From Cladocopium goreaui (taxonomy: Eukaryota; Sar; Dinophyceae; Suessiales; Symbiodiniaceae), in assembly GCA_947184155.2 (NCBI GenBank), contig CAMXCT020001700.1, forward strand, positions 62,001-126,000: DNA of 64,000 bases. Direction: 5' to 3'. The position numbers and the translations under genes are program-made. Positions 3,040 through 39,000 of this stretch are shown piece after piece (positions within the stretch are counted from its first letter, which is position 1; every line of letters begins with the position of its first letter). The notes under the pieces are model-generated. The model ran no database searches. It was not told where the DNA came from and worked only from the letters and a program-made list of their open reading frames with translations.

Positions 3040-3190
3040 ACATCATCAACATCATCATCATCATCAACATCACTACATCCTCTACATCACCCACATCACC
3101 TACATATTCTGCACCATCTTCACTACATCATCATTATCATCATCATCGCCACCACGGTCGTCATCATCATCATCATCATCAATCTCACCT
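3040..3190. repeat. CAT/ATC trinucleotide-rich tract
   Basis: Imperfect CATCAT/CTACAT repeats. A similar ATC/GAT tract occurs in intron 2 of the actin gene. Confidence 0.85.
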
Positions 3191-7587: not shown

Positions 7588-8573
7588 TAGGTAGGTAGGT
7601 AGGTATCTAGGTATCTAGGTATCTAGGTATCTAGGTATCTAGGTATCTAGGTATCTAGGTATCTAGGTATCTAGGTATCTAGGTATCTAGGTATCTAGGT
7701 ATCTAGGTATCTAGGTATCTAGGTATCTAGGTATCTAGGTATCTAGGTATCTAGGTATCTATGTATCTATGTATCTATGTATCTATGTATCTATGTATCT
7801 ATGTATCTGTGTATCTATGTATCTATGTATCTATGTATCTATGTATCTATGTATCTATGTATCTATGTATCTATGTATCTATGTGTGTATGTCTGTCTGT
7901 CTGTCTGTATGTATGTAGGTAGTTATGTACGTACGCACGTACGTATGTATGTATGTAGGTACGTATGTATGTATGTATGCATGTGTGTATGTCTGTGTGT
8001 CTGTATGTCTGTATGTCTGTATGTCTATATGTCTGTATGTCTGTCTGTCTGTCTATTTGTCAGTCAGTCAGTCAGTCCGTCAGTCAGTCTGTCTGTCTCT
8101 ATGTATGTATGTATGTATGTATGTCTGTCTGTCTGTATGTATGTCTGTCTGTCTGTCCGTCTGTCCGTCTGTCCGTCCGTCCGTCCGTCCGTCTGTCCGT
8201 CTGTCCGTCTGTCCGTCTGTCCGTCTGTCCGTCTGTCAGTGTGTCAGTGTGTCAGTGTGTCAGTGTGTCAGTGTGTCAGTGTGTCAGTGTGTCAGTGTGT
8301 CTGTGTGTCTGTGTGTCAGTGTGTCAGTGTGTCAGTGTGTCTGTGTGTCTGTGTGTCTGTGTGTCTGTGTGTCTGTGTGTCTGTGTGTCTGTGTGTCTGT
8401 GTATGTGTGTATGTGTGTATGTGTGTATGTATGTATGTATGTATGTACGTACGTACGTACGTATGTATGTATGTATGTAATGTAATGTAATGTAATGTAA
8501 TCTAATGTAATGTAATCTAATGTAATCTAATGTAATCTAATGTAATCTAATGTATGTATATATATGATATATG

Positions 8574-12840: not shown

Positions 12841-13114
12841 ATCAACATTTCAGTATCGTTGTCTCTGTCTATGTATGTATCTCTATTTCTGTATGTGTAC
12901 ATATTTGCATATGCAAGATTTATATATATATATATAGTGTATATACATATATATATATATGTATATATACATATATATATGTATACATATAGTATTATAT
13001 ATATATTATTATATATATATATATATATTATTATATATATTATTATATATATTATTGTATATATTATTATATATATGATATTCATATGTATATGTATGTA
13101 TGTATATATATATA
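12841..13114. repeat. TA-rich microsatellite flanking element A (left)
   Basis: TATATA with ATT and GTAT interruptions. It ends abruptly at the outer terminal repeat of element A. A matching ATT/TA array resumes at 20093 on the other side of the element, so the element appears to lie inside one microsatellite. Confidence 0.9.
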
Positions 13115-13281
13115 TCACACAGCTGCTGCAATCTTTTCCCGCTTGTGGCAAGTTGTCCCAAGCGCTGATACATCAGCGGTGACAATCGAAAAAGAGGTTG
13201 CGACACTCCAGGTACCAGTCGTCCAACGCAGCTGCAACTCACACCAGAATATGTAATGCCTGGAAAAAATGGCAACCTCCA
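13115..13281 (-). repeat. Element A terminal repeat B2
   Basis: Outer 3' copy of the 167-bp B repeat, six mismatches from B1 (13361-13527). It is separated from A2 by 20 bp. Confidence 0.93.
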
Positions 13282-13301
13282 AGGGCGAGGAGGGTTATGG
13301 G

Positions 13302-13361
13302 GCCAAAGGAACTGAGCTGTAGGCCACAGCTATGATTCCACCTGACAAGTGATGAGCACAT
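13302..13361 (-). repeat. Element A internal repeat A2
   Basis: 60-bp sequence identical to A1 at 20033-20092. It directly adjoins B1; the shared AT dinucleotide at 13360-13361 may be the recombination core. Confidence 0.95.
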
Positions 13362-13527
13362 CACATAGCTGCTGCAATCTTTTCCCGCTTGTGGCAAATT
13401 GTCCCAAGCGCTGATACATCAGCGGTGACAATAGAAAAAGAGATTGCGACACTCCAGGTACCAGTCGTCCAATGCAGCTGCAACTCACACCAGAATATGT
13501 AATGCCTGGAAAAAATGACAACCTCCA
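13361..13527 (-). repeat. Element A repeat B1
   Basis: Inner copy of the B repeat, starting 6 bp after the recombinase stop codon. Confidence 0.93.
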
Positions 13528-13532
13528 TCTCT

Positions 13533-14363
13533 TCATTGCTTTGACTTGTCAACCAAAAAAGAGTGCAACAGCGGCCCAGCAGCATCTGCAAATAGCTTGA
13601 CTACCGCACGGTCTTCGGGCGGCATTTGAGCTAGGAGTGATTGAGCAGCTACCTCTTGGATGTAATGCTCAACTGTCTTCAATTGGGCCCATCTGCCCCT
13701 CCATTGAATCAAGCTAAGGTCCTCACTTTCAAGGTACAACGCTGTTGCACCACTTCCGCGCAACACGGCAGGGGTGGCCCCGCGAGAAGGCATAGAAACT
13801 GAAATTCCAAGTCTGCCGAGGATGTGATCCCAACGCCGTCGATAAGCCGACGTGCCACCAGCAAATAAGGACGCATTAGGAGCAAGAGCACCAAACACCT
13901 TAGCCACGTAAGCAAGGACGCAGGGATCGTCGATCTTGCAGTGTTGCTTCCTGGCAAAACGAGCCGTCTTAGGGTTCCTGATATGCACATAGAATGCAGC
14001 GGTCTCATTCAAAGTGTCACCTGGCAGTAAAAGGTCAGACCTGAGAAGGGACATGAACTCGGCTGGATGTAACATCCCAGGGAAGCCAATTAAGGTGATC
14101 CCCAACCATCTGTACCACTTCCAAATCAGGCATAGGCAGCTAACTGCTCGCATGATTGGAGCAGAAAGAACCGGCCTGCAATGGCCCGGTTCGTACTGCT
14201 GCCACTTTCTGTCAACCTGCCAGGCAGAACGGCCGCAAATGTGGAAATGTGTCCTGCATGGCTGTAATGGTATATACAAATTTGTACCGAGGAAAACCTC
14301 CAGCAAAAAGGTGCAATCCATAAGCTCGCAAGGCGAGCGGACCAGCTGTGTAATCCCATCCAA
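13533..14363 (-). CDS. Element A tyrosine recombinase, C-terminal catalytic part
   Basis: Recombinase that would insert the circular DNA intermediate of element A. The frame holds the core binding region (VDRKWQQ...EPGHCRPVL), a box I-like segment GFPGMLHPAEF, and a box II-like segment TPAVLRGSGATALY followed by the tyrosine motif VEHYIQEVAA near residues 228-237. The usual box I arginine appears as His (MLHP rather than LLRP) and box II begins with Thr rather than His. The box II form could be a family trait; the box I change may be inactivating. The true N-terminus lies upstream in the neighbouring frame after the 2A site, with a frameshift near 14215, so this copy is probably broken. The frame ends 6 bp before B1. 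Confidence 0.8.
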   Translation of the reverse strand: MDGITQLVRSPCELMDCTFLLEVFLGTNLYIPLQPCRTHFHICGRSAWQVDRKWQQYEPGHCRPVLSAPIMRAVSCLCLIWKWYRWLGITLIGFPGMLHPAEFMSLLRSDLLLPGDTLNETAAFYVHIRNPKTARFARKQHCKIDDPCVLAYVAKVFGALAPNASLFAGGTSAYRRRWDHILGRLGISVSMPSRGATPAVLRGSGATALYLESEDLSLIQWRGRWAQLKTVEHYIQEVAAQSLLAQMPPEDRAVVKLFADAAGPLLHSFLVDKSKQ

Positions 14364-15609
14364 TGCTTTGCAAGGTCAGTGCAAACTCGGCAAATAACCA
14401 GTTGGCAAACTCATCCAAACATAGCTGCATGCGCTTGGACGTCGCCGTAGCAAAACCCACATCCATGGACAGCTGGCCTCGAGGGGTCCGAGGCCTTGGT
14501 TGAAAACCAGGTCCGGGATTGCGCTCAATATCCCCAGCCAAAAGCAAAAGGAAACGCAACCATCTGGCTGCCAGCTTCGTGCACTTTGCAGACTCCAGGA
14601 TTCTGTCAAATCGATCAAAACCGCCGGAGCGTAGGTCAGAAAGCCAGGTTGGAATTTTCTTGGTTGGTGCAGGCACAGGACGGTTACGCGACGGTGCGTC
14701 GCTTCTGTTCTTACCGGATGCAATGTGAAATCCCCCAGAATAAAGGCACCCGCCCAAAACATAACCTAAGGAACCTTGCAAAACTCTGCAGATAGCCCGG
14801 CTACTGGACCTGCCTTTTGAAGTAGCTCCTAGTGTGACACGGGAATCAAGTAAACTTAGGATTCTGCTATTGGGGTGGTATTTAGCACAATGCTTTAGGA
14901 GGGTTTTATGAACCCGGCATTCAAGAACATTTATATGGTTTCGTTTCTTGAAACGGTACCTCAGCAACTCTTTAAACGGCAAGGAATCCGCAAGTTCTTC
15001 GATCCATTCAGGATCCTCATGAAAAGGTCTGGGATCTGCTGCCGGAAGGTTGGAAAGGTTTCTAGGCAGATCGGGACGAATGCCAATTCTGCGAAAGGAC
15101 AAAACTTTGGCTGCAATTGGAACAATCGGGGCGGAATCATGACGAGCAGCAATAGCTCCCGATGCAATTCGAGCGCACAGCAGCTTCGGGTACGAGGCTG
15201 AGAATGCAGAGACATGTTCGCCAACTTTTGGCCAGCGGCCGTAAACCTCATCCGGAGAGGGGCGGCATCGCGCCGCAAAATCAGCAACTGAAGCATGAGT
15301 GAAAGTGCCCTCAATTACAAAATGATCCGCCGAAGAACCGCACCTACAGGATTGTTCAAGTCCAAGCATCCAAGGTTTATTATGTAGCCATTTAGATGGC
15401 TTTTTGAAAGGGGAACCATAAGCACAAAAACACAAGTGGGTTATGATGCATCCACGAAACACCATCCGTTGAAACACATCCAGGTAAAACATGACAGACC
15501 AGCCAGGCTGTTCTACGCTGAAGAAACCACCAGCCAGCAGCACTAGGTTCATCAGGAAGGCGGTCCTGAGGGCCAGCAGGGTGTGCTCACGTGTCAACCG
15601 ATCCCACAT
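14212..15609 (-). CDS. Element A Pol 3' part: methyltransferase C-half, RNase H C-half, 2A peptide, YR N-terminus
   Basis: Same frame as the upstream Pol frame, from which a single TAG (15691) separates it. Domains in order: residues ~25-150, the second half of a C5-methyltransferase-like fold with VEQPGW (ENP-type motif) at 32-37; ~220-310, the second half of RNase H with Glu230 (NHINVLECRV), Asp255 (LSLLDSRVTLG) and Asp304 (RSDAPSR); residues 355-367 LLLLAGDIERNPGP, a canonical 2A-like motif; then the N-terminal domain of the recombinase (RMQLCLDEFANWL...LRAYGLHLFAGGFPRYKFVY). The recombinase continues in another frame after ~14215. The first codon of this frame is not a real start; translation would have to come through from Pol. 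Confidence 0.82.
   Translation of the reverse strand: MWDRLTREHTLLALRTAFLMNLVLLAGGFFSVEQPGWSVMFYLDVFQRMVFRGCIITHLCFCAYGSPFKKPSKWLHNKPWMLGLEQSCRCGSSADHFVIEGTFTHASVADFAARCRPSPDEVYGRWPKVGEHVSAFSASYPKLLCARIASGAIAARHDSAPIVPIAAKVLSFRRIGIRPDLPRNLSNLPAADPRPFHEDPEWIEELADSLPFKELLRYRFKKRNHINVLECRVHKTLLKHCAKYHPNSRILSLLDSRVTLGATSKGRSSSRAICRVLQGSLGYVLGGCLYSGGFHIASGKNRSDAPSRNRPVPAPTKKIPTWLSDLRSGGFDRFDRILESAKCTKLAARWLRFLLLLAGDIERNPGPGFQPRPRTPRGQLSMDVGFATATSKRMQLCLDEFANWLFAEFALTLQSIGWDYTAGPLALRAYGLHLFAGGFPRYKFVYTITAMQDTFPHLRPFCLAG
14509..14535 (-). other. 2A-like ribosome-skipping peptide GDIERNPGP
   Basis: Codons GGG GAT ATT GAG CGC AAT CCC GGA CCT encode G-D-I-E-R-N-P-G-P, preceded by a Leu-rich helix-like segment. 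This fits the consensus D(V/I)ExNPGP exactly. In known 2A systems the ribosome skips the last Gly-Pro bond. Here the break would separate RNase H from the recombinase. Confidence 0.9.
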
Positions 15610-15690
15610 GTTGAAACCAGCAGGTTGCTGCTTTGATCTTAATGTCGGTTTTCTAAGAGTCCCATATGTTTTACAAGGTGTTCCTGCATG

Positions 15691-18198
15691 CTAGTCTGAA
15701 ATGACACCCCACGCAGCCAAGCTGGCTGCTTGATGAAAAGTGCTATCATCCAACAAGTCACCAAACTGCATTCTGCGACCATCCACATCAAAGCCATCGT
15801 GAACGCGAAAACCAGCGGCTTCGTGAGCCAATGACCAGTTGCCCTCGCTTCGGAACAACTCAATGCAGTCGAACAGGATGCCTTCCGAAAGTGAACAAGG
15901 TATCTTAAGGACAACATCCCGGTCGGAAGGCTGAATGGAAGGGATGGGTTCCTCAAACGATTCACCTAAGGATGATAACACACTGGCAGCTGGAGCAAGC
16001 AACTGGGTATAGTAACCCCGCTGTTCACTGTGACGCCACAACTCTTGAACTACTGACTCACTTTCGGGTGACTGGCATATGCCTGCTCCGTCAGGGCTGG
16101 CATCCGTGCAAAAAATGAAGGGTGCATAACCAACACACAAATCACTCATGCAAACCGGTCCCAAACAACTGAGAGCCAACAGTTCATTCCGAGTCTCTCT
16201 ACTCAGGGAGAAAATTTGGTTCTGCGGCCGCTCAATGCCGTCGGTGAAGGCGTGAGAGACCACCGCCAAAACAGCTCTACGAAACATCAGCACATGAATC
16301 CAGCAGCCGAGCGAACTCGCAAGAAGCCGGCGGCTGGCTGTTCCTCGTCTGGCGACAAGGACTGTGCACATCATCAAAACTGAAATACGGTGGCGTGGTG
16401 CCGAAACAAACCCTATTTTCCCATCAACTTCAGCCCCGAGAAAAACACCCTGAGATACTTCCCGCTGCTTCTTTTTGGGGTGTTGCACAAGCTTAACAGT
16501 TTGGTAAGCCCTTTCAGCTCCTAGAAATACAGCAGTATCACGCAGGGGGACCCGGTTACGAAATTGATTCTCGGTTACGACCTGAATGCCAATATGATCG
16601 TCAATTGAAAGCCATTCCATGAAATCAGATCTGGGAAAAGGGTGGCGGTAACACACCCGCTCGCTGTCCAGCATGCTGCCGGCTAAGAATCTCAGCACGT
16701 TGCAGTGCGCTTGTTGCGCTATCTCAACTGCCCAGCTGTCGCCCATTGCCAGGGCGCTCAACGCAAGGACGCATGGTCCATAGTGCTTTGAAGAGTCAAA
16801 ACAAGACAAATGTCTCAACTCAGCTGCATCAAACAACTTACCAATGCAGTTCCTTTTTGCTCTGGCTGTTGGAACCCTGACAGTGTAATACATCTCTGCA
16901 AGATCATCTGCGGATATCCGAAGCCTACACCCTGGTTTGAGGTGTATGAGAGAAAACATGGACCCTGGCGCAAGTTGTTTTGTGTAATGCGAAAAGGACT
17001 GCATCCGGCTATTCACAGTTTGGGGATTGAGGATCAGCCGATCGTACTGATCATCTTTTGGCACTGCAAACAAACCAACGGCTTCATCCCAATTAATTTC
17101 ATCCAACCGAAAAATACGACAAGCCCCCTTAGTGTCCCATTTGCATGCGAGACCCAAAAGCTCCTGTTTGGAACAATGCACTCTACCCCAAGGTTGTTCA
17201 GGCCACAGGTGAGAGGGCAATCTGACTCTAGCGGGGTCAACAAACGCATCTTTGACTATGGGATCAACCAAGTACGGAGTGGGATCAAAATTGGGGCTAT
17301 GTTCCCATTTAATTCTGCTGGAAATGACAGGCTTCGCAACAGACTTTGGCATACGCGTCTCACCAAGTGAACGCCCTGCATCCGGGGGACTACAAGGGGA
17401 AGGACTAGGCGGATTAAGATCACAACTGGAGGCCATATTATGCTGATCCACGGAAGTGGGCTTGGAAGAATATGGATCCAACTTACTTGCAAGGTCAAAA
17501 ACTAATTCATCGAGGTCCACTTCCTGGTTACCAGGCAATTCCTGACAAGCACGCAGCAAGTTGCTGAATTTTTCACAACTGCGTCCCAAGCTTTGTGACG
17601 AGATCGGACCCGCCTGTACAAAGTGGTCAACAAGCCGTTCGAGCCTATTAATCATCGCACACTGCTCTTCAGTTAAGTCAAACCCAGTGCATTCCTGCGG
17701 TGGGGGACTAATGGGGTGCCCAAGGGTCTCCCAGTTGAGGGTGGCAACAACCAGCTGGAGCAATGAGTGACGAAGCTTCAAACGTTTCCTAAGCTTGCGC
17801 CTTCGGGGCGACAGTCGTGTTGAGCCCGTCCACTCCCAGGTTGGTAAGGGACATGGCCACAAATCGGAGCATGCTGGAGCTCCGTGCACGGTGCGGGAGT
17901 GCGGCTGCAGTGAAAGCGTGAAGAATCTACCCAGGCCTACATGCACCGCTTCTGCACTGAAAACAAAACGTTCCAAAAAACTTAAAAAACTTACGGGTGA
18001 GTCAGAAGGGCTGAACTGCGGCATTTCTTCATTCAGCTTAGACTGTACATTCGAGGCCTGACAAAAGTGAGATTGGGCTGCTGCAGGGCTGGAGCTCCTA
18101 GGCCTATAAACATTCCCCCGGGGGCTATCAACCAATTCAGCAGCTTCACAAAGAGGCGACGAGGAAAATTCAGTCTCTCCTGACTTCAGTTCCGGCAT
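15691..18198 (-). CDS. Element A Pol 5' part: reverse transcriptase, RNase H N-half, methyltransferase N-half
   Basis: The probable start is ATG at 18196-18198, overlapping the Gag stop (TGA 18186-18188). After a linker come RT motifs: RISADDLAEMYYTV (motif A region), AMGDSWAVEIAQQAH (motif B region) and LSIDDHIGIQV (motif C, IDD in place of YxDD). The first RNase H catalytic Asp lies in FCTDASPDGAG (codon 16102-16104). About 80 residues later begins a methyltransferase-like Rossmann segment (ELFRSEGNWSLAHEAAGF, then GFDVDG and GDLLDD). The frame stops at TAG 15691, and the in-frame sequence just past it reads HAGTPCKTYG, the PPC-type catalytic loop. The stop therefore cuts the methyltransferase and is most likely a mutation. 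Confidence 0.85.
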   Translation of the reverse strand: MPELKSGETEFSSSPLCEAAELVDSPRGNVYRPRSSSPAAAQSHFCQASNVQSKLNEEMPQFSPSDSPVSFLSFLERFVFSAEAVHVGLGRFFTLSLQPHSRTVHGAPACSDLWPCPLPTWEWTGSTRLSPRRRKLRKRLKLRHSLLQLVVATLNWETLGHPISPPPQECTGFDLTEEQCAMINRLERLVDHFVQAGPISSQSLGRSCEKFSNLLRACQELPGNQEVDLDELVFDLASKLDPYSSKPTSVDQHNMASSCDLNPPSPSPCSPPDAGRSLGETRMPKSVAKPVISSRIKWEHSPNFDPTPYLVDPIVKDAFVDPARVRLPSHLWPEQPWGRVHCSKQELLGLACKWDTKGACRIFRLDEINWDEAVGLFAVPKDDQYDRLILNPQTVNSRMQSFSHYTKQLAPGSMFSLIHLKPGCRLRISADDLAEMYYTVRVPTARAKRNCIGKLFDAAELRHLSCFDSSKHYGPCVLALSALAMGDSWAVEIAQQAHCNVLRFLAGSMLDSERVCYRHPFPRSDFMEWLSIDDHIGIQVVTENQFRNRVPLRDTAVFLGAERAYQTVKLVQHPKKKQREVSQGVFLGAEVDGKIGFVSAPRHRISVLMMCTVLVARRGTASRRLLASSLGCWIHVLMFRRAVLAVVSHAFTDGIERPQNQIFSLSRETRNELLALSCLGPVCMSDLCVGYAPFIFCTDASPDGAGICQSPESESVVQELWRHSEQRGYYTQLLAPAASVLSSLGESFEEPIPSIQPSDRDVVLKIPCSLSEGILFDCIELFRSEGNWSLAHEAAGFRVHDGFDVDGRRMQFGDLLDDSTFHQAASLAAWGVISD

Positions 18199-18930
18199 CC
18201 TGACGGGGCTGCAGAGTCGCTCGTCTCGTCCTTCGCTTTGCCTCGGCCTTTCTTTGGCTTCCACGGCTTGCGAGGACCTTTTGGAAATTCTTCGTCTGCA
18301 GGGTCGTCCTTGGACGGCTTGTCGGCGGACTTGGTGTTCTTCAGTCTGCCCTCCAGATAGTCCAAATCCTTCAGGTAAGCTATGTTGCCTGTGACCCACG
18401 GAGCCGAGGCGAGCTTGGCATAGGGGGTCAGCCCTACGCGACGGCGGTTCATAGTGATTGTTTGCAAATTGGGGTCCGGCATGGCAGCTAGGAGCCAGCC
18501 GAATTGGCATCGGCCCTGGTCCAAGGCGATCTGCTCCACCATCATCAAACCAAGTGCAAACAAGCCCATTGAGAACTCGTTCTTTGCTTCGCAACTCATC
18601 TGCCAAGCCACGGCCATGTACTGAGCCAAGTTGGTCAGCTGTCGTTGATCTCCCAAAGGCATCCGCTTCTCCACGTAGCTTCGCATCAAGCAGCTGTTCA
18701 CCTGATCGGCCGGGAGGCCCAGATCTACGGCAGCATTGGAAGCTATGGATCTTCCGGTGCCCTTCACATCTTCCATAGTCCGCAGGTAGGCATCCCTGGC
18801 AACGCAGCCCTTGAGTCCGCTTCGCGAGCTGCCTCCTTCGCTGCCCAAGGCGGCGGTGACCAGATCTCTGGTTGGCGGCGCCAACTTCTGCATCAACGCC
18901 GCGGTTTGCTTCATCTGCATGGAGTGCCAA
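18186..18930 (-). CDS. Element A Gag, C-terminal part
   Basis: Well-formed protein-like frame with helical segments (YVEKRMPLGDQRQLTNLAQY, FSMGLFALGLMMVEQIALDQG) and a Lys/Pro-rich basic tail suited to nucleic-acid binding. It ends in TGA ten bases after the Pol ATG, so Gag and Pol overlap out of frame. Upstream of ~18920 the sensible coding moves to the next frame, which suggests a frameshift mutation there. The other long frame across this interval is GC-driven noise. No zinc knuckle is visible. Confidence 0.65.
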
Positions 18931-19752
18931 CAGTTGGTGCAGAGGATCCGACGAGGCATTGAGGACCTGAGATACCTCGTCCTCGGCTTCGACCTCCGCC
19001 TCCGCATGAGCGAAGGCTTGCTGAGGGGCAGGATTCTCCTCTGCCAACCCCTCTGTGCGGGCAAACCGACCCCGAGGAGGTCCGGCTAAGGAGCGAAGGC
19101 GCTCCAAAGTTCCTGGTGGAACTGCCCCAGCGACAGTGCCAGGGGCAAACAGCACTGACCTTCCGGCCACAAGAGGTCATGGCTCCAGGTCTACCACTGG
19201 AGCTAGGCCACCAGAGGGCGCCGCTTGCTGCGTCTCCAGTTGGGCAATGCGCGCCTGCAACTGCTGAACAACTTCTGGGCTGACATTGGACTGAACGGGC
19301 GAAGCTGCCTCTCCTTCTTCGGCAGTGAAATGCTCCAGCAAAACTTCGTCCGCGGCCAGCTCGCTGATCCAGAATTCTGCCGCTTGGTGAGCTCCTCGCA
19401 TGGAGGGGCGAGCAATTGAGTTCTGGGCCATCATCCGCAACAAACCGGCAGCGGCGTTGCCGCGCAAGGCCGGAGTGCGCACGAAATGAGCCGCACACTC
19501 GGCGGGCATGTCCACCAACACCATCCGTCCTGAACCAAGCCTTCTTCCTCGAGCATCTTCCAGAGGAACATCTACTTCCTTTTGAACCACCAAACTGTCT
19601 CCATCGCCATCCACTAACTGCTCCAGAAGAGCGAAGACTTCTTCCAAAGCAGGTAGCAAAACCATGAAACCTGAAACACGACATCGAACTAGGTGAGCCA
19701 GGAGACGCACTCCGGCGCCTTCCAAACTTCCTACCAAAACTGTAGTGGGCAC
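18915..19752 (-). CDS. Element A Gag, N-terminal part (interrupted by TGA at 19177)
   Basis: Starts at ATG 19752. Residues 1-60 are hydrophobic/leucine-rich; residues ~100-190 include a coiled coil (EVVQQLQARIAQLETQQ). A single TGA (19177-19179) interrupts the frame, which then continues through PLVAGRSVLF and an acidic stretch to ~18915, where coding changes frame. Function inferred from position between A1 and Pol. Confidence 0.6.
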
Positions 19753-20032
19753 TGTGATATTCCCTGAACCTAGAGCGGAGTTCCACTCGCCCCCTGGCAG
19801 CTGGCAGTTCGTACCAAATAGCGAAGGCTGAAGTTACACAATGCCAAATCCAGATGCGGCACTTGGAGGACAGCAGGCAAGCTGACACAAGTGCCCCGCA
19901 GCAAAAAGGCACCGATAAATATGGCTCCAAGCAAAATGCCAGACAGAGAACAACTAGACTGACTAGGGGGAAACCACCAGCGGAGCTCTCTAATAGCTTC
20001 GAGTGCCGAGGCCCAAGGGACCGCACTCATGA

Positions 20033-20092
20033 GCCAAAGGAACTGAGCTGTAGGCCACAGCTATGATTCCACCTGACAAGTGATGAGCACAT
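20033..20092 (-). repeat. Element A terminal repeat A1
   Basis: 60-bp 5' terminal repeat, identical to 13302-13361. Its outer end (GAGCACAT) passes straight into TATATAT microsatellite. Confidence 0.95.
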
Positions 20093-20395
20093 ATATATAT
20101 TATTATATTATATTATATTATATTATATTGTATTATATTATATTATATTATATTGTATTATATTATATTATATTATAGTATATTAAATTATATTATATTA
20201 GATTAGATTACATTACATTACATTATATTATATTATATTGTATTATATTATATATATATGTATAGTATATATATGTATATTAGATTATATTATATTATAT
20301 TATATTATATATATGTATATTGTATTATGTATATATGTATATTATATTCTATATAATTATGTAACTGCATATAACTTCATATGTATTTATAATGT
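20093..20395. repeat. TATTA/TA microsatellite flanking element A (right)
   Basis: (TATTA)n and TA repeats, the probable continuation of the array at 12841-13114 interrupted by element A. Confidence 0.92.
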
Positions 20396-23260: not shown

Positions 23261-24289
23261 TTATGACTGGAAAGTGCCCAACAAAGAAAAGATCGACTGC
23301 TCACACGTGTGAAAGCGCTCCTTTGTCAAGTGACGGGTTGGGATAACCAAGCCACTATGTTTTGTAAGCAAGTCTAAAAAAGACCAGGAAAAACTCAAGG
23401 ATAAAGCCCATTTGTGGATCCGTTCGCGGGTGTCACCACGCTGGGCTTGGCGACTGCGGTGAACCGCAACTTCCCCCTGACGTATATACTCTCTAGCAGC
23501 CCGTTCAGAGGACCAACGACCGTATAGAAGTATATCTTGCAGTGGCATCCCCAAACGACACAGTTCCGAAGCTCCAGATCGACGGAAGGTATGGGTGCTA
23601 ACCACCATATCATCACCTCCTAGCAACCATGACAACTTCTTGACCCATCGCAGAAAAGAGGCATAGGATACAGTGAAAACCAAATCATCCGCCTTTCCAG
23701 GAAAACGCTTAAGAAACTGCATGACGAAATGCACCACAGATATGTTCCGCATGACAACCTTTTGTTCCATGCCACGTTTCGTTTCGCCCAAGCATAATGT
23801 GACCGAATCAGCCTGCAGGATGATATCGCGGTATCGCAAGGACATAGCTTCGCGAACCCTAAGCAGACCAGCATAGCAGAAGACCATGACACAGGAAACA
23901 TGGGGTTTGCCCAAAAAAAGAGCCATAGCCATCATCCCATGCAGAAACTCCGGCGTAGCTGCTGGTGCCTGTCTAGTTGGTTGCTGACGCCCCCAAATAT
24001 CAAATACTCGCCAGGCTGTTTTCAGCCTCAGCCTAGGATGCACCTTCTGCACCGCTGACAATGCCCAACCGTACGCAGCTTTGCTAGCCCCTGCCTCGCA
24101 CCCATCAATCAACCATTCTGCTATAAAACTGTCTTGTTGTTCCTCGCTCATATCCTGCCACTGATAGCCATGAGCTCTCAACTCACTGTTGAGGTCTTCG
24201 AGGGCAGCTGTGTATTTCTGAATGGTTGATGGTTTCAAGGACTGAAGCAAGAAAACTTGGATTCGGTTCGGGCCACTGCCAGCCCACAT
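23261..24289 (-). CDS. Element B tyrosine recombinase
   Basis: 342-aa YR from ATG 24287-24289, overlapping the 3' end of Pol by 107 bp in another frame. An N-terminal SAM-like core-binding domain (LKPSTIQKYTAALEDLN) is followed by the catalytic domain. Box I is CYAGLLRVREAMSL with the conserved Arg. Box II is HTFRRSGASEL (H-x-x-R intact). The loop GRWSSERAAREYI supplies the probable nucleophilic Tyr. Expected role: strand exchange integrating circular element DNA without target duplication. All key residues are present, so it may be active. A ~65-residue tail follows the Tyr motif. Confidence 0.88.
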   Translation of the reverse strand: MWAGSGPNRIQVFLLQSLKPSTIQKYTAALEDLNSELRAHGYQWQDMSEEQQDSFIAEWLIDGCEAGASKAAYGWALSAVQKVHPRLRLKTAWRVFDIWGRQQPTRQAPAATPEFLHGMMAMALFLGKPHVSCVMVFCYAGLLRVREAMSLRYRDIILQADSVTLCLGETKRGMEQKVVMRNISVVHFVMQFLKRFPGKADDLVFTVSYASFLRWVKKLSWLLGGDDMVVSTHTFRRSGASELCRLGMPLQDILLYGRWSSERAAREYIRQGEVAVHRSRQAQRGDTRERIHKWALSLSFSWSFLDLLTKHSGLVIPTRHLTKERFHTCEQSIFSLLGTFQS

Positions 24290-27200
24290 CTACGCCAGCC
24301 CCCCACGGGTCTGTGCCAGCCGCAGCAGACTTCCTAGGTGCAAATGGCATCACATAGTGCCTGGAGTGAGCCAAAACTAAACGCAACACAAAGCTTTCTG
24401 CCAGACGATGAGAGAAACCGAGAGGGTATTTGGCTGTGAGTGTGGCCCGAAATTTTCCATGCAAATCAAAACCTAGGTGCAACCGGTGTGGTTCTTTCTG
24501 GTCGCACACGCTGCTGATAGAAGAACATGCACATGGAATCAGTAAGCCGGTCGGTTTTCTACTAAGCTGATCCACCACTTGGTACTTGAGCTTGAACTTT
24601 CGCATGAAATATTTTACCTCCTCAGTGCAGAAGAAGGACGGGTAAGGGTCCCGACCCCGGTCAGCGGGGTGCGCAAGGCCAACCCAGCCACCGCCAATAG
24701 CTATCTCACCCAAGAGTCCCACCGTGATGAGAAACAGCGCGCTGCCCACATTGACAGCAGCTTGTTCTTGTTTACCACAATAGCTTAGTGGAACCCAAGG
24801 ACTGCTTCTAGCCCGCAGCGGCCGTGGAGCCTTTCGCCCCGGCCTGTTCAACGGCTGATGTCTAGCCGCTGAGATAGTACCGCAAGGGGGAGATCCAAAT
24901 CCGCCAACCACACGTTTGTGGTGAATAAAATTGAGGATCCAACCACCAAATTGTTGATTCAACAAATCACTTGCAACCTCACATGAGCCCCCTTCAATCG
25001 CTGAACTGCAAAACGATGCCAATGGGTCTACGGCCAAGCCCTGAATATCAAAACCATGCTCTCGTCCAACCCTTTCCACAGCATCTAACAAATCATCTGA
25101 ACGACGGGGACCACTGCAAAAATGAATGAAAAACCATTGGTGGGATGGCCACAACCCCAACTCCGCGATCTCAATGATCGGCTCAGCGGAAGCCAGCTCA
25201 GAGCTCTCAGCCTTCCGCGGTGAAGACTCAAACCTGCGCGAGGGCTCATCAGCAGGGTTGTCACCACTGGGCAACCATGGGTAAAAAACCTCGTGGCCAC
25301 CTGCAATGTTAATACTGGCAATACGGCGACACCGCAAATTGAGCAGATGAGAACTGGACCTCCCCTTTGTGAATGCCCCCGTGCAAGCAGCTGAATCTAA
25401 ACCATGTACAAAACGCCCTCCGTCATCCAGTGGGCGCCTGAGACGATCTTCTGCTGTCCAGCAAGCCGCATCACCTTCACCTAAGGTGATGTGAGAGCAT
25501 TGCCATGGGATACCAATCTTGGTCCACTTGATGCGCTCATTAGGGATTCGCACTTTTCGCATTGGACATTGGTGAGGCTGTTTCAAACCAATACCCCATG
25601 GAAGTGACAAATTGGTGTAGATCTTATGATGGTCTGTATATCTGGCCAGGGTCCGCACCACCACCTCTGGGACAATGCCAAAGGCCCGGCCAATACCTGT
25701 CATGGAGGCATCTGAGCACTCAATACGAGTAGACCACGTGCTGGAGAGATCAAATTGTGCAAATGGAAGCAACAATGCCGATGACAGAAGCTCTAACCAT
25801 ACATCATCAGGTAGTTCAACCATTGCACGTTTCTTACCCCTAACTGACGTGATCCACAAATAAGTGCGTTCGAAAATTGATCTCAAGCAAGGACGACCAG
25901 AATGAACAAAACTATGTTTCCCTATCAGCCGGTCAATCACTGCTACCACCACTGTACGCCGTAGCAAAATGTTGATGGTTGCCTGAAACAAATGCCTCCT
26001 CTTATCCATAGATACTCCAACCCAATGATCATGTGGATGCACAAAGTAACCCTGAATCTCTTCGCCTTCTGCAGCATTCACTGACTTCTTGGAGTTCGGC
26101 TCAACGCCGCGCAAACACCAGCTGTCCTCCGCACGTTGCAGCCACGAGGGCCCAATCGGTTGACAACCAGCGGTTTCCTTGTGATCCAAAGCCCAAATAT
26201 CATCAATAATTGAACCCCAAATTGGTAACTCACCTGGAACCACAACGTCAGGGTGAAGGCGCTGATCTTGGGGAAGCTGCGCATCTATAGCTACTACATC
26301 AGTCAGACCCTGAGCCCACCCAGCCGATGGCCCAAATCCCATGGGGGTAGATTGACATGCGGGAAACATACTGCGAACTCCTCCACGCCGCGATGGAAGG
26401 TGTACAGCTGGCCCACACAGCCAACGGGCCCATCTGCGACCTATTCGTAGCCGGCGAAAATAATGCCTCGCATCCCTCTTTGATACTACTACAGTGCCAG
26501 TCTTGGGAACAGTCACCCCCCTCAAAGAAGGAATGAAAGCAAACCTTGGACGAGGCAAAAGCTCGGGGTCCAACAACTGATTAACCTGTGGATCTGTTAT
26601 AACCCTGTCTTCCTTGTCATCCTTCATAACCGCAAACGCACCAGCCAAGACCAGTTTGCCCCGATGCTGTGCAACTTGATGGGGATGTTTGAGTTTATGA
26701 AGACCTGCCTTGACATTCTTGCGAACTAGCTCGGGGTAGGAAGGTGCCAACCATGTATAGCCACGTTTGACCAACTTGGGGCGTTTTCGGGATGCAAACA
26801 ACAATCTAGTCGGATTACGAATCTGTTGGCTCATCTCCGGAAAATGAGGTTCCAAATGATCCGCCAAAAGAACATCGGCGGCCCGGTCCGGTACCCCGCC
26901 TCGCACACCCAAAGCTAAAACAACTCCACTGCCATTGTAGAGCTGTGAATGCCGCAAATAAGCGTCAACTCCCTGAGAGCTGAGAACAGGCTCGTCGGTC
27001 AGCACCTGAGCCTGGAGAATGCTGGCTATTCTGCCATGCACTCTCTTGTGAGCTGCGCTAAGGACTTCATCATGATGCCCCTCACGCCCTCCATGCAACC
27101 AATTCAGCACGGACACAATGAGATTCCCACCATAGTAAAGGCACTGCCGTGCCACGTCATTCCCACAATCAGCCAGAGACAGAAGCTGCCCCTTCATGCT

Positions 27201-27470
27201 CATGGGTGGCAACGGGAAAACATGCGCCGGCGACTCTGCAGCGAGAACCTTCTTCGAAATTCCCTCTGTCTTAAATTCCGCCATGCACCAAGGCTTCCCA
27301 AGAATTCTAAAGGTTCTGCGCACCTGAGCTGGCAATCCACCATCGCTTCCAGGCCAGTTCAGAGCCGCAACAAGTGCCTGCCCAACCTTGGCATAAAAAG
27401 CATCATAACCAAATGACCCAACTGATGCACCACCCAAAGCAAACCAGGAGCGCCTAAACCTCCTTCTCAT
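24183..27470 (-). CDS. Element B Pol: RT, RNase H, C5-methyltransferase-like
   Basis: 1095 aa from ATG 27468-27470, which overlaps the Gag stop as ATGA. RT: motif A around Asp333 (VVSKRDARHYF), motif B PMGFGPS at 376-382, motif C SIIDDIW with Asp423-Asp424. RNase H: Asp587 (IECSDAS), Glu665 (ITLGEGDA), Asp692 (HGLDSAACTG), Asp741 (DNPADEPSR), all present and contiguous. Methyltransferase-like: FFIHFCSGPRR at ~780-790, an acidic SAM-pocket stretch near 814 (LAVDP), catalytic-type GSPPCGTIS with Cys863, and LAHP at 932-935 in place of ENP. Open sequence upstream of 27470 in the same frame is Gag read out of frame. No lesion seen. Confidence 0.9.
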   Translation of the reverse strand: MRRRFRRSWFALGGASVGSFGYDAFYAKVGQALVAALNWPGSDGGLPAQVRRTFRILGKPWCMAEFKTEGISKKVLAAESPAHVFPLPPMSMKGQLLSLADCGNDVARQCLYYGGNLIVSVLNWLHGGREGHHDEVLSAAHKRVHGRIASILQAQVLTDEPVLSSQGVDAYLRHSQLYNGSGVVLALGVRGGVPDRAADVLLADHLEPHFPEMSQQIRNPTRLLFASRKRPKLVKRGYTWLAPSYPELVRKNVKAGLHKLKHPHQVAQHRGKLVLAGAFAVMKDDKEDRVITDPQVNQLLDPELLPRPRFAFIPSLRGVTVPKTGTVVVSKRDARHYFRRLRIGRRWARWLCGPAVHLPSRRGGVRSMFPACQSTPMGFGPSAGWAQGLTDVVAIDAQLPQDQRLHPDVVVPGELPIWGSIIDDIWALDHKETAGCQPIGPSWLQRAEDSWCLRGVEPNSKKSVNAAEGEEIQGYFVHPHDHWVGVSMDKRRHLFQATINILLRRTVVVAVIDRLIGKHSFVHSGRPCLRSIFERTYLWITSVRGKKRAMVELPDDVWLELLSSALLLPFAQFDLSSTWSTRIECSDASMTGIGRAFGIVPEVVVRTLARYTDHHKIYTNLSLPWGIGLKQPHQCPMRKVRIPNERIKWTKIGIPWQCSHITLGEGDAACWTAEDRLRRPLDDGGRFVHGLDSAACTGAFTKGRSSSHLLNLRCRRIASINIAGGHEVFYPWLPSGDNPADEPSRRFESSPRKAESSELASAEPIIEIAELGLWPSHQWFFIHFCSGPRRSDDLLDAVERVGREHGFDIQGLAVDPLASFCSSAIEGGSCEVASDLLNQQFGGWILNFIHHKRVVGGFGSPPCGTISAARHQPLNRPGRKAPRPLRARSSPWVPLSYCGKQEQAAVNVGSALFLITVGLLGEIAIGGGWVGLAHPADRGRDPYPSFFCTEEVKYFMRKFKLKYQVVDQLSRKPTGLLIPCACSSISSVCDQKEPHRLHLGFDLHGKFRATLTAKYPLGFSHRLAESFVLRLVLAHSRHYVMPFAPRKSAAAGTDPWGAGVDVGWQWPEPNPSFLASVLETINHSEIHSCPRRPQQ
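27467..27470 (-). promoter_or_regulatory. AUGA stop-restart overlap between Gag and Pol
   Basis: Gag ends ...ACA AAC CAA TGA; the Pol ATG shares the last bases (ATGA). Such overlaps support termination-coupled reinitiation in some RNA viruses and non-LTR retrotransposons. It would give a low Pol:Gag ratio here. Confidence 0.65.
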
Positions 27471-29104
27471 TGGTTTGTCAAAGCCAGCATGCTCGTGCTG
27501 GCCAATGCCTTTCTGTTGTCCACCAATTCGATGGCTTCTGCTCTTTCCCATGTGCCTCCTTTCTGCTTTGCTGCTTGTATGGCCAGAATGCGCTGGCAGA
27601 GGACGTCCAACGCCTGCGCAATCTCCTTGCGATTGACCATGTCCAGTATCTCTGCCAAAGTCGCCACCTCCTTCATGTCTCGAATCTCTGTGAGGCCCGA
27701 GAATTGATGAGCCCAGGATGTGACTGACACTTGTCGCAACTGGGAAGACCTTGTCAGGGATCCTTTGGAAAGCCTTGTGAACACACTCGCCAGAAAATGG
27801 GCAGTCAGGGCTCCAGGGTGACGAGCTGCAAAGGCTACTAAATCCCCTCGCTTCTTCAGTTTCAACTGATCCACGTGAGTCAGGCTGGACAAAGGGACCT
27901 TGCGGTCCTTGCCATCCTCCCTCAATCGGAGAGGCCTCTTCTTGCCCCCTGAGGATCCACTGCTCGCGCTTGCACTTCGGGAACGGCTGGATGAGCTCGA
28001 AGAGCTTGAGGACCGGGACTTCTTCTTCTTGGAACGTTTCTTCTTCTTTTTCTTTTCCTTGTCTTTCTTCTGGGATCGGCCCCGGCCATGGCGAGCAGAG
28101 CTTGGGCTGAGGGCCATGGCTTGGAGTTGCGTTACCGCATCTTCTAATGCTTTCAAGTCTGGGAGCTGGGTCTGGCCCCCTAGTGGCGCGCCAACACCCA
28201 GCGCGGGAGCCCCTCCTGGCCCCCCACCCAAAGCACCGCCTCCTGCTCCGCCGGGACCGATTGGGCCAGGAAGCTGCATAGCCATAGGTTGGAGATCGCC
28301 TGAAACCCCAGGCTGATTGACAATCCACTGGCCCGGGTTCATACGGTATTGAGTTAGGATCATGTTGCCCTCCACAGTGCGGTTGGCCATTTCGGGAGCA
28401 CCAGGACGCCAAGGCTGTGCCCCCGCTGGTGGAATGCAAATCCAATTCACATGGTTCTCGTCTACCCCAGGGGGAGCACGGTGGGATCCATCCGCCGCCA
28501 CATGGACCAACCGCAAGTGGAGACCATTCATATGAACCAACACCCAAGCCCAATCCGTCCCATCTGTGACAGTTGTACGGCATAATGCTATGGTTTGGTC
28601 TTCTGAGAAGCCTATGACCAGCACCTCGTCCCATTCAGGGGGTCTACTCACCAACACAAATGTGCCAAGTGGCAAAGGAGCTGCCCCTGCCACCACTGCC
28701 ATCACCTGCCAGGTAAAGACGCCTTCCTGTTCTGTTGCAGTGCAAGGCCCTGGTGGCTGTCTTCCACCAAGCCGAGATGTGAGAACCTGCTGCCAGCAAC
28801 GAGTGAATGCCTCCAAGCTGGAGCCCACTAAACACAGCAACCAATAGAGAATCCCCAGAATAGCTTGTACCACCCAGATTACCTCACGCCACGAATGCCA
28901 AAGTATGAATGCGCCTCCCAATGTCCACACTGACTGATACCAGTGCTGCCCGGGTAGGAGCTCTTCCAACACCAATGGCCACAAAGGTCTGCTCAAATGA
29001 ATCAGGGTGTTTGCAGCTAACCTGGGGCCCTCCGCCTGCAACCAACTCCAGCCAAGTAGTGAAACTCCAGCTATAGCCCCACAGGGTAGAACAGCACGGT
29101 CCAT
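27467..29104 (-). CDS. Element B Gag-like protein
   Basis: 545 aa, starting 14 bp inside the 5' terminal repeat. Residues 1-100 hold two to three strongly hydrophobic segments (e.g. VVQAILGILYWLLCLVGSSL), which suggests membrane association, unusual for Gag. Residues ~130-225 look like a compact beta-rich domain (FVLVSRPPEWDEVLVIGF...). A Gly/Pro-rich linker precedes a Lys-rich block and an Arg/Ser-rich block (residues ~345-385), then a helical C-terminal domain. No zinc knuckle. Identified as Gag by position and basic tract only. Confidence 0.75.
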   Translation of the reverse strand: MDRAVLPCGAIAGVSLLGWSWLQAEGPRLAANTLIHLSRPLWPLVLEELLPGQHWYQSVWTLGGAFILWHSWREVIWVVQAILGILYWLLCLVGSSLEAFTRCWQQVLTSRLGGRQPPGPCTATEQEGVFTWQVMAVVAGAAPLPLGTFVLVSRPPEWDEVLVIGFSEDQTIALCRTTVTDGTDWAWVLVHMNGLHLRLVHVAADGSHRAPPGVDENHVNWICIPPAGAQPWRPGAPEMANRTVEGNMILTQYRMNPGQWIVNQPGVSGDLQPMAMQLPGPIGPGGAGGGALGGGPGGAPALGVGAPLGGQTQLPDLKALEDAVTQLQAMALSPSSARHGRGRSQKKDKEKKKKKKRSKKKKSRSSSSSSSSSRSRSASASSGSSGGKKRPLRLREDGKDRKVPLSSLTHVDQLKLKKRGDLVAFAARHPGALTAHFLASVFTRLSKGSLTRSSQLRQVSVTSWAHQFSGLTEIRDMKEVATLAEILDMVNRKEIAQALDVLCQRILAIQAAKQKGGTWERAEAIELVDNRKALASTSMLALTNQ

Positions 29105-29117
29105 GGAAGGAGATCTT

Positions 29118-29213
29118 GAACAAAAACATAAAGGCGGTCATGACAAGACATGTCCAAGGCTCTTCAGATTCCATTCACTGAAATTTAAACCACGCAGTTG
29201 GAAACAGGCCCAT
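29118..29213 (-). repeat. Element B terminal repeat (5' copy)
   Basis: 96 bp, identical to 22980-23075. Outer end GGCCCAT then ATATATATG. Confidence 0.95.
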
Positions 29214-35398: not shown

Positions 35399-36898
35399 TT
35401 AACCGTTGTGCTCAAGATTTCCTATCAGCTTATTTAGGTGAGGCCTCACCAAATCAGCTGAGAGGAACTTAACAAGGATACCTTGGGAGGAATTCCTAGA
35501 AGGGGCATCAGCTATATTACTAGAGGAAGGAACCCTTGCATGCCAAGCTGTTAGGCAGGCAGCATCCTCCTGTTTGAGCAGGGCAGAGACTAGCGCTGAC
35601 CCTGGCCAAGTCCTCGCGCTGCCACTGATCGCCACGTCCCTGGCACCATTGTTGTCAACATACATGACACAAGGGCGATTTCGGAGCATCTTCCTCCAGA
35701 GTTTCACACAAAGCACCAACGCAAGTAGTTCCGCTTCAAAGATGACTGTGGATTTCAAGGGGTACCCAAGAGTTTTTAGGTCAGACCCAGTCAGAGAGAT
35801 GGAGATTGCTGCCAACTGTCTACCCGTCTCATCGCAAAGTACACCACCGAGGCCGCAAGGCCAGTGGGACCCATCAGGGTTGAAACTTGCATCCGTGAAC
35901 AAAAGCATTGGCTTGTCCCAGGTGGCTGTTATTTCCCTGGGTCTTGCGGCAACAAGGCTATCTACAAACGCTTGCAAACAGGCAATGGCATGATCCGTCA
36001 ACGACTCGCCTCTGTCACTGTAAGCATGGGCAGTGATAGCGGATAGGCAGAGTTTTGCGGATCTGCCCCATATTTGACTCTTAGCAAACTGCACCCTACC
36101 TCTCAGCCCTAGCGCGCTCTTAGGGCCCAACTTCCCGGTTTTCATTGCTTGCTCTATCGTGGTCTTTAGCTCATCAATTCTTTTCCTAGTGTTGCGGAAG
36201 AGGACCAGGCCGGACCTCCATTGTGAGCAATCAATTTCGACCCCTAGCGCTTTGAAGGTGCTAGCAAAGGGGAGGTTTTTGTCACCCTCCGAGACCAGCC
36301 AACCTAACAAGCGGAAAAACTGCTTTGTCGCAATCTCCATGGTGGGCACTTCGCTCTTTCTGCAGAGGGTTATGAAGTCGTCGAAGAAGCTACTCCAAGG
36401 GAACTTAAGAGAAACACAACCAAGCCACCACAGGGAGTGAGCTACTCTAAGGAATGAATACACAGACCTACTGGCACCAAAAGGCAACGCCCTCATGGAG
36501 TATATTTTTGCAGATTTTGTGGAGGGGTCGTAGACAGCAATGTATGAAACCCATCGGGAGCGTGGGGAAACACCAAGCTGACGGTAGGCTGAAGACAGGT
36601 CGATGGTCTTGCCCATCCATTCAGTGTCCCCATGCTGACGAAGCAACTCCATGCACAAAGCGGCTACGATGTCAAGAGTGTGAAGCTTCGGGGCGTTCTC
36701 AACTTGGACCGTTTGGTTCACATTGGACGCCGTAAAGTCATCGATCAAGCGGATCTTGACCACCTCGCCTGAAGATTGGCGTATCCCCAAACGCCTGCTA
36801 ACAACAGCGCTCTGTTCAAGAGTGCTCACGTCGATAGGGCCCTCCAGCCAGCCACATGCAACTTCATCCTGCGTTTTGTTGAAGACCTCAGGTCGATC
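35399..36898 (-). CDS. Element C reverse transcriptase and RNase H
   Basis: Sensible coding enters from another frame near 36895 and runs to 35399. Numbering from the GTG at 36829: RT motif A Asp77 (TIDLSSAYRQ), motif B LPFGASRS at 115-122, motif C FFDDF with Asp150-Asp151, then thumb/connection (GPKSALGLRGRVQFAKSQ). RNase H: Asp313 (FTDASFNPDG), Glu365 (FEAELLAL), Asp392 (YVDNNGA), Asp441 (NIADAPSR). All catalytic residues are intact and RNase H is contiguous, unlike element A. The domain ends right at B1, so nothing (no YR) follows it. Confidence 0.85.
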   Translation of the reverse strand, partial: DRPEVFNKTQDEVACGWLEGPIDVSTLEQSAVVSRRLGIRQSSGEVVKIRLIDDFTASNVNQTVQVENAPKLHTLDIVAALCMELLRQHGDTEWMGKTIDLSSAYRQLGVSPRSRWVSYIAVYDPSTKSAKIYSMRALPFGASRSVYSFLRVAHSLWWLGCVSLKFPWSSFFDDFITLCRKSEVPTMEIATKQFFRLLGWLVSEGDKNLPFASTFKALGVEIDCSQWRSGLVLFRNTRKRIDELKTTIEQAMKTGKLGPKSALGLRGRVQFAKSQIWGRSAKLCLSAITAHAYSDRGESLTDHAIACLQAFVDSLVAARPREITATWDKPMLLFTDASFNPDGSHWPCGLGGVLCDETGRQLAAISISLTGSDLKTLGYPLKSTVIFEAELLALVLCVKLWRKMLRNRPCVMYVDNNGARDVAISGSARTWPGSALVSALLKQEDAACLTAWHARVPSSSNIADAPSRNSSQGILVKFLSADLVRPHLNKLIGNLEHNG

Positions 36899-36935
36899 TC
36901 ATCATCACCCGATGATCGCACTGATGCAAGCAAGG

Positions 36936-38696
36936 CTACACGCGACGCCCTAGCCGAGGACGCCAACTCATCTTCGGTGATCTTGGCTGGTTTGAAACCT
37001 GGTTCAAGAATGGCACGTCAGGTGCCGCTCCGGACAAAGTTATGCCTGAGATTACCTCATCAAACACTGCCACATCAGGATATTGGTAGTACTCAAGCAT
37101 CTCTTTCCACAACAGCAAACGTTTTGGTGCAAGAATGCCCTTCAATGAAGGGTGCAGAGACTCATGCAATGTCCTTTCTTCGTCACGCAATTCTCGACCA
37201 CGGTTTAGCCATAAATTCAAGGTGTCTGACCTGTGTCTGGCTACTTCTTTAGGGGACTTCAAGGACAAAAAGTTCAAGACATTCTTCAAGGCACAAGGTA
37301 ACCTAGTCTCGCTTCCTGCAGGGTGCCCAGCCCAAGAAGCTGCGGAAATGAACTGGTCACACGACCTATAAATCCCAAAGTGTAGCTTGTTCGAGACTTT
37401 CTCAACGCAGGCATTGGGTGAATTCACAGGGTTTACCTGGGCGAGACTATGGGATTGGTTACCAGTATTAAGGGTATGGGGTTGGTTATTACCGTCACCT
37501 GAATTACCCCCATTACCATTACATGAATTTCCCCCATTTAACCGGAGTGGAGGTTTCTTGAGGAGACATGAGCCGGCTGGGATATTGAACCAGGACGATT
37601 GTAACTTGTCCCCAGGTTGGATGGGTACTGCACAGTCAGCTGGCACTTGCACGCTGACGCTTGTGTGAAATTCGGACACCAATGGTGCAATTTTACTGGC
37701 TTTTGGCTGCACACCTACTACCGAGCGTAGATACTGATAAGACACGTCATCAGGGGGGCAAAAGGCAACTGGTGGTGGCTGCCAGCCCCTTAAAATGAGT
37801 TCTTGGGCCAAGGAATATGCAATGCGATACGCAAGTGGCAAGGGATATGCAGTTTCTTTGGCAGTGGAAAATTTCCGGCCGGCTGGTCCATGAACAACAC
37901 CCCATGGCTTGTGTTTATGTGAGGCACTGATCCCAGGGCAAACTTGGTTGAGGTGAAGCAAAGTAGAGGTGTTGTGTGCAAGTGCTGTCCATTTTGGTCG
38001 GCTGGACCCATAGGCGCAAGCTTGGTGTGCCGTGAATTGCAAACGGCTGGCCAACAGTTGGAAGAAAGTGGTCTTCCAATACAATGACAATCTTGGATTT
38101 TCAATGCAAACAAGCTTACCGTTATCAAGGCAAAATTCCGCAGCTGCAGTAATGAAATGATATATGGCATTGGCTTGTGACACACGGAGACGATTGATGT
38201 ATGACATCTTGGAAACACCATTGGGCTGCACATCCGTTCGCAAAGGCTGGGGGCCAGCAATGAGAAAACCATTGGGAAGCTTAATGGGGATACCTCTAGC
38301 TCTGCTACAAGTCCCGCAAGGAGGAGCTGCGAACATACCAACGCAATTTGGGGACTTAAGCCAAGTCCAGCAAAGGTCTCGACCAGCTTTGGTTGTGAGA
38401 TCGGCGATGAGCACACGCCCAGCATTCTTCTGCTTGATGTGGTCGACGCCAAATGAAGCAGATAGACCTAACTGTTGGAGGCATGCTGTGACTCGTGCGG
38501 AGCCAGCACAAAGCTCAATGATGAATGGGTCTTTGGCATTAAGGCTTTGATCGGTGCCTGAGTTTATGTTCGTGGTCTCAGGCTCATGGTGATCAGAGAA
38601 ATCAGGCTTATTGGAACAATTATTGTCAACTTGTGCAGAATTATGTTGCAAAAGGGGGCTGTAGTGAAACGGACTTGCATCAGCTCGGTCAAACAC
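36936..38696 (-). CDS. Element C C5-methyltransferase-like domain and linker
   Basis: 586-codon frame continuing, after one TGA (38751), from the CCCH finger frame. Methyltransferase-like region: motif I IIELCAGSARVTACLQQLG at ~59-77, acidic residue in FGVDHIK, LIADLTT at 96-102, catalytic-type AAPPCGTCSRARG at 124-135 (Cys127), and LVCIENPRLSLYW with ENP at 199-201. These match cytosine-C5 methyltransferase motifs I, IV and VI. A long linker with an Asn/Gly-rich stretch follows, then a helical segment leading to RT. Coding changes frame near 37010 (FEPGFKP-type sequence continues in the next frame), so this copy is broken. Such domains in dinoflagellate retroelements have precedent; enzymatic activity is unproven. 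Confidence 0.75.
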   Translation of the reverse strand: MFDRADASPFHYSPLLQHNSAQVDNNCSNKPDFSDHHEPETTNINSGTDQSLNAKDPFIIELCAGSARVTACLQQLGLSASFGVDHIKQKNAGRVLIADLTTKAGRDLCWTWLKSPNCVGMFAAPPCGTCSRARGIPIKLPNGFLIAGPQPLRTDVQPNGVSKMSYINRLRVSQANAIYHFITAAAEFCLDNGKLVCIENPRLSLYWKTTFFQLLASRLQFTAHQACAYGSSRPKWTALAHNTSTLLHLNQVCPGISASHKHKPWGVVHGPAGRKFSTAKETAYPLPLAYRIAYSLAQELILRGWQPPPVAFCPPDDVSYQYLRSVVGVQPKASKIAPLVSEFHTSVSVQVPADCAVPIQPGDKLQSSWFNIPAGSCLLKKPPLRLNGGNSCNGNGGNSGDGNNQPHTLNTGNQSHSLAQVNPVNSPNACVEKVSNKLHFGIYRSCDQFISAASWAGHPAGSETRLPCALKNVLNFLSLKSPKEVARHRSDTLNLWLNRGRELRDEERTLHESLHPSLKGILAPKRLLLWKEMLEYYQYPDVAVFDEVISGITLSGAAPDVPFLNQVSNQPRSPKMSWRPRLGRRV

Positions 38697-38750
38697 AGGG
38701 TCTGTACATGAGGAAAATTTGTGTTTGCGAGATGTTTCATGGCAAGGGAG

Positions 38751-39000
38751 TCAATGCTTCTTATGGTCGGCCATCGAATGCGGCCCATAGCAAATGCAGC
38801 ATAAATGGTACCCCTTTTTGCAACGGGAGCCCTCAGCCACAGATTCGCGACAACGCTTGAAAGCAAAGTCAAAACAGATTGGTGCACCATCAGGAGTGGT
38901 TGCGGTACCTCCTGCCTCTCTGATTTCTTTCGGAATTCTCTGATCCGATTTCTTGCCTTTGCCCTTACCCTTTGATGGTATATGGTTTAGGTCGGAAGCC
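38751..39000 (-). CDS. Element C Gag CCCH-type zinc finger region
   Basis: In the frame one base on from Gag: a Lys/Gly-rich segment (SKGKGKGKKSDQR), then ICFDFAFKRCRESVAEGSRC followed by KKGYH, a C-x7-C-...-C-x3-H (CCCH) finger, and a second Cys/His cluster (CCICYGPHSMADH). CCCH fingers bind RNA and could act as a nucleocapsid. TGA at 38751-38753 separates it from the methyltransferase frame. Reaching it needs a +1 shift near the Gag stop (38965), either programmed or mutational. Confidence 0.65.

Follow-up and report, generated by a model that had tools for sequence, protein, structure and literature searches.

How a large family of retrotransposons with a tyrosine recombinase (YR) makes this enzyme apart from its Pol protein is the question raised by the locus described here, and a 2A joint between the two would answer it. 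The locus lies in the window, that is, the whole 64-kb stretch of DNA that was analysed, and its dinoflagellate origin, supposed in the first-pass annotation, holds.

A 2A/StopGo-like motif in a broken DIRS-like element

We have searched the window with a degenerate DNA pattern for D-x-E-x-N-P-G-P, allowing at most one mismatch, and have obtained a single match (14510–14532), on the minus strand and with 0 mismatches. It encodes the core octapeptide DIERNPGP (14509–14532, minus strand; WLRFLLLLAGDIERNPGP), which conforms to the 2A/StopGo core (D/G/C/N)(V/I)ExNPGP. In the shuffle control for this pattern, the mean was 0.01 matches, and only 1 of 100 shuffles contained a match. In a six-frame scan of the 64 kb with the core positions relaxed, no other such motif was found. 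The full match to D(V/I)ExNPGP that the first-pass annotation had claimed with no mention of the strand is therefore confirmed, on the minus strand.

The open reading frame (ORF) 14212–15690 (minus strand; P0001, 492 aa) reads across the motif as ...LAARWLRFLLLLAGDIERNPGPGFQPRPRTPRG..., and the 2A/StopGo-like peptide LAARWLRFLLLLAGDIERNPGP covers 14509–14574 (minus strand), as judged by pattern match, translation and family conservation. Its skip site is expected between G and the final P. The upstream context is also of the 2A/StopGo type, being L-rich with a G before p12. This ORF comprises the end of a methyltransferase-like domain, and in the frame of the motif it encodes the C-terminal part of RNase H upstream and the N-terminal part of YR downstream; the order RNase H–2A–YR proposed earlier holds here. 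According to sequences and folds, a 2A in frame between two protein domains is found in the relatives of this ORF as well. At E ≤ 0.001 the ORF has 141 homologous proteins, and its domain reading comes also from the folds of a relative, P0007, in whose predicted model the core is a coil with pLDDT below 50, following a helix and lying between folded domains.

The element that carries the motif extends over 13114–20092 (minus strand) and has split direct repeats instead of plain LTRs, in the order A1-ORFs-B1-A2-B2, which together with the tyrosine recombinase are features of the DIRS order. The terminal repeat A1 (20033–20092, 60 nt) is 100% identical to the internal repeat A2 (13302–13361), and the internal repeat B1 (13360–13527, 168 nt) is 96% identical to the terminal repeat B2 (13114–13281), all on the minus strand. 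Beside the A1 end of the element, ATATT runs occupy 20104–20377. Elsewhere in the window, a long simple repeat (7747–8490, plus strand) has a VC-rich reading frame.

Within the element and on the same strand, an ORF in the gag position (18186–19085) is without a Pfam match and corresponds in position to the ORF that precedes pol in two other genomic copies, L086 and L088. It is followed, with approximate limits read off the six-frame scan, by the reverse transcriptase (RT, 16140–17334), a first part of RNase H (16029–16135; strands 408–418 and 422–429 in the L088 model) and a second part of RNase H (14680–15010). Full-length Pol gave no useful match in Pfam, and when solved structures were searched by profile, the matches did not exceed chance level; folds were therefore needed for the Pol domains, and RT and RNase H of these proteins have been recognised by fold only. 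A DNMT-like methyltransferase domain apparently lies inside RNase H (approximately 15100–15873, with one premature stop); this arrangement is seen at 15100–16135 (minus strand) of the window and at 3168–5981 of L088, with a borderline fold match.

The rest of Pol is found in ORF 15691–19176, in the same frame as ORF 14212–15690 with one premature stop between them, while the catalytic part of the tyrosine recombinase (13533–14177, minus strand, within ORF 13533–14375) lies in another frame. The window copy is thus broken, by this stop and by the frame change, and is unable to make the full product.

Conservation of the core in the family

We have collected three protein searches (the best 120 of 141, of 159 and of 137 matches), which gave 289 distinct proteins, namely P0001 of the window and 288 homologs among the matches listed. 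Two flank HMMs, one for the end of RNase H and one for the start of YR, were built with the motif and the linkers excluded, although their seeds were 65 full-length proteins that bear NPGP, and they are biased to that extent. Both flanks were found in 202 of the 289 proteins; the other 87 were dropped, and 4 of the first 75 dropped carry NPGP. Relatives with both flanks but without NPGP had been named at the outset as evidence against the proposal, and at the protein level the outcome is mostly favourable to it. Actually, 175 of the 202 rows have strict D(V/I)ExNPGP, and 20 have G at p12, H at p14 or H at p16 (19 with a single change and 1 with a double one: p16=H in 14, p14=H in 3, p14=H with p16=H in 1, p12=G in 2). 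The remaining 7 depart in ways without known activity: two RPGP, one NRGP, one NLGP, one p13=N, one p14=K, and one gene model that lacks this stretch. The RPGP, NRGP, NLGP, p13=N and p14=K rows have thus not been accepted as 2A forms. The broader core (D/G/C/N)(V/I)ExNPGP is present in 177 of the 202 rows (175 with D, 2 with G), and among the first 238 proteins 148 core matches were observed while 0.001 was predicted from composition. Predicted proteins favour intact ORFs and copies, which biases such counts. Overall, the motif is a trait of the family.

The accessible sections of Li et al. 2026 (PMC12846837) give a measure for these departures. There, H at p14 and H at p16 are reported to reach more than 95% activity in vitro in natural viral contexts, and D12G to be functional, while N16H is only modestly active when placed in a foreign 2A context. 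For p14=H combined with p16=H, activity would be putative. An LLLLSG-like upstream class is also defined there, and R is absent from the residues that these sections list as favoured at p15.

For conservation at individual columns, 106 representatives below 80% identity were taken from 142 rows that had been selected with a relaxed motif. The mean column entropy amounts to 0.42 bits for the core and 0.56 bits for the 20-residue motif, against 2.19 bits in the linker before, 2.65 bits in the linker after, 1.20 bits in RNase H and 1.73 bits in YR. The core value is partly forced, since in the regular expression the G before D and the final GP are obligatory and the other core columns restricted; the linkers and the L-rich stretch are mostly unforced, and the unbiased measure is the 202-row flank count. 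Within rows picked in this way, the core is almost constant and the linkers around it diverge; whether NPGP is conserved with drifting flanks was a check proposed in the first-pass annotation. Leucine occupies positions −13, −12, −11 and −10 in 105, 105, 98 and 90 of the 106 representatives, respectively. The G before D, required in this set, is also present in 53 of 53 genome matches, where the pattern does not require it. At p15 the residue is mostly R or P.

We further built a tree of 143 rows (from 163 flank-selected rows) with the motif excluded and 2 rows unscored. On this tree p16 has changed 12 times (FastTree; IQ-TREE quick), with 129 N, 10 H and 2 R, and p14 has changed once. Histidine is one of seven residues that lie one base from AAY, yet it is the main replacement at p16 (10 H versus 2 R). 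That is, the change from N to H at p16 has occurred repeatedly.

In the 1.17-Gb genome of the same organism, the degenerate core pattern is matched at least 86 times and the reversed pattern 0 times. P0290, a protein of Cladocopium goreaui, has 371 of its 1475 30-mers in common with L034 of this genome, and the host is probably this species. RNase H and YR accompany 53 of them, YR only accompanies 1, and neither is present in 32; 84 read D(V/I)E, and the 2 with DLE are among these 32. By our own reading of the table, 33 of the 54 YR-bearing matches have an open frame of 400 codons or more ahead of the core and of 300 or more behind it. The constancy of NPGP in the 86 matches was rejected as evidence, for it is circular: the genome sets require NPGP, so only synonymous variety and the unpatterned residues count, and the NPGP codons do vary synonymously among the 53 matches with RNase H and YR. 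We have read four 9-kb loci (L086, L087, L088 and L089). After the gag-position ORF, L088 has an uninterrupted frame of 1581 codons from RT through 2A to YR, and L086 likewise has an uninterrupted pol-2A-YR frame; L087 and L089 have shorter 2A-bearing frames of 1340 and 875 codons, respectively.

Probable release of the recombinase and rival readings

The presence of the core throughout the family, the types of departure from it, its place within the frame and the drift of the linkers are most readily explained by a working StopGo/2A, which very probably frees YR from Pol during translation in this dinoflagellate family of DIRS-like retrotransposons. With pol and recombinase sharing one reading frame, the ribosome would skip the last Gly-Pro bond at the 2A/StopGo of the Pol-YR joint. 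An RT-RNase H-methyltransferase protein with a C-terminal 2A tail would be released first, and the recombinase would then be made as a separate protein beginning with proline. Such skipping on dinoflagellate ribosomes and its efficiency are inferred, and free YR would be what selection keeps. We have also counted in favour of a working 2A that a second element in the window, with a homologous YR, has this YR in a separate overlapping ORF. Counted against it are the broken window copy, R at p15 in 58 of the 106 representatives, the 7 departing rows of 202, the putative status of the double p14=H/p16=H form, the biases of predicted proteins and of the HMM seeds, and the modest activity of N16H in a foreign context.

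The last point bears on a variant in which skipping is only partial, so that fused Pol-YR and free YR are made in a proportion set by a leaky 2A, much as other elements make use of frameshifting. This would refine the release of YR rather than deny it, and we regard it as possible but rather unlikely. The rows with H at p14 or p16 and the mixed residues at p15 could tune the efficiency, and a leaky natural 2A is described for sea-urchin proteins in the accessible part of PMC4981915; however, the high activity of both histidine forms in their natural viral contexts does not favour leakiness.

Quite improbable, on the other hand, is that the motif persists because the linker between RNase H and YR has a function in structure or binding, and not because of skipping. 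Conservation extends to the helix and to a W-L...F-D stretch ahead of the core, and the region could be a small domain. However, it is the 2A core whose residues are conserved, departures from it mostly correspond to forms with reported activity, and the same core recurs in unrelated LINE-type elements with other upstream sequence. A chance match or a functionless fossil, as the premature stop and the frame change of the window copy might suggest, can practically be dismissed at the level of the family, for the core lies far above chance and is found across the family in both the 289-protein and the genome counts.

Known systems and other 2A-like cores

The original reports on 2A in non-LTR retrotransposons are those of Heras 2006 and Odon 2013. 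According to the accessible parts of two further papers (PMC4981915, PMC11512398), 2A is known there in L1Tc of Trypanosoma cruzi and in APE-type elements. The present family resembles these in having a 2A within a retrotransposon polyprotein, but here it separates Pol from a tyrosine recombinase. The first-pass annotation had regarded a YR retrotransposon with a 2A as a distinct use. 2A in retrotransposons was known already; 2A in YR elements or in dinoflagellate retrotransposons was not found in the literature searched (titles and the starts of abstracts, among the matches listed), though entries of this kind may be present in Rao 2025 and Odon 2013. Compared with the 2A/StopGo of picornaviruses and others, as far as PMC12846837 is accessible, the D(V/I)ExNPGP core, the L-rich stretch that closes with a G ahead of D, and the in-frame position between two enzymes are alike, whereas the preference for R or P at p15 and the dinoflagellate host differ, and the present motif is a putative 2A. 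If it works, the 2A joint would add a second retrotransposon order to the viruses and non-LTR elements that use 2A.

Described relatives are DIRS-like elements of Symbiodinium, SymbioDIRS-Dnmt3, which in the accessible text of de Mendoza et al. 2018 (PMC5890265) share the A-coding-B-A-B repeat arrangement and, putatively, a DNA methyltransferase domain within Pol. This domain is a DNMT3 domain, while the methyltransferase match here is borderline. Their YR is a separate ORF, but in the present family it lies in frame behind the 2A; since YR shares one frame with pol in L086 and L088, the family is a relative of SymbioDIRS-Dnmt3 and not a member as described. In a text search, the words "ribosom" and "skipping" were absent from the main text of that paper.

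The second element of the window, element B (23261–29137, minus strand), is also DIRS-like, with long open, overlapping gag-position, pol and YR ORFs, a homologous YR and, by eye, a methyltransferase-like stretch. It differs in that its YR has its own overlapping ORF with no 2A motif, and the methyltransferase-like stretch follows RNase H instead of lying apparently inside it. A further element seen by eye (35399–41375, minus strand) has RT/RNase H-like and PPCGTCS methyltransferase-like ORFs together with ORFs of other kinds, and the order of these is different.

Among the 32 genome matches without RNase H or YR, 28 have by our own reading another upstream type, approximately W.RDL..DG before D(V/I)E. 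For ten proteins of this group of 32, a Pfam search matched Exo_endo_phos in 8 at E < 0.1 (2 below the Pfam cut-off) and OTU in 3 (1 below the cut-off). In six LINE-type loci (L042, L049, L051, L072, L031 and L039), the 2A-like core (approximately W.RDL..DGDVExNPGP) stands shortly before the Exo_endo_phos match. L031 has an OTU-like protease match upstream as well; L015 also has one upstream, and no endonuclease match was seen there.

It is reasonably probable, then, that StopGo is wide in the retroelements of Symbiodiniaceae, with an in-frame Pol-2A-YR in DIRS-like elements and, independently, a 2A of another upstream class before the endonuclease in unrelated LINE-type elements. StopGo is rare in cellular genes according to the accessible sections of Li et al. 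2026 (PMC12846837); if the above is true, a major cellular reservoir of natural 2A sequences, perhaps the richest one, would exist in dinoflagellates, and the recurring exchange of N for H at p16 would document in nature which 2A variants work in living cells. The present sets supply well over 100 natural algal 2A sequences for mechanism work and for co-expression tools in algae. One further match, DVERNPGP, is encoded close to the beginning of an ORF (L001:1381–2430, plus strand) for which Pfam gave TPR matches; this ORF may be a host gene whose N-terminus is 2A-like.
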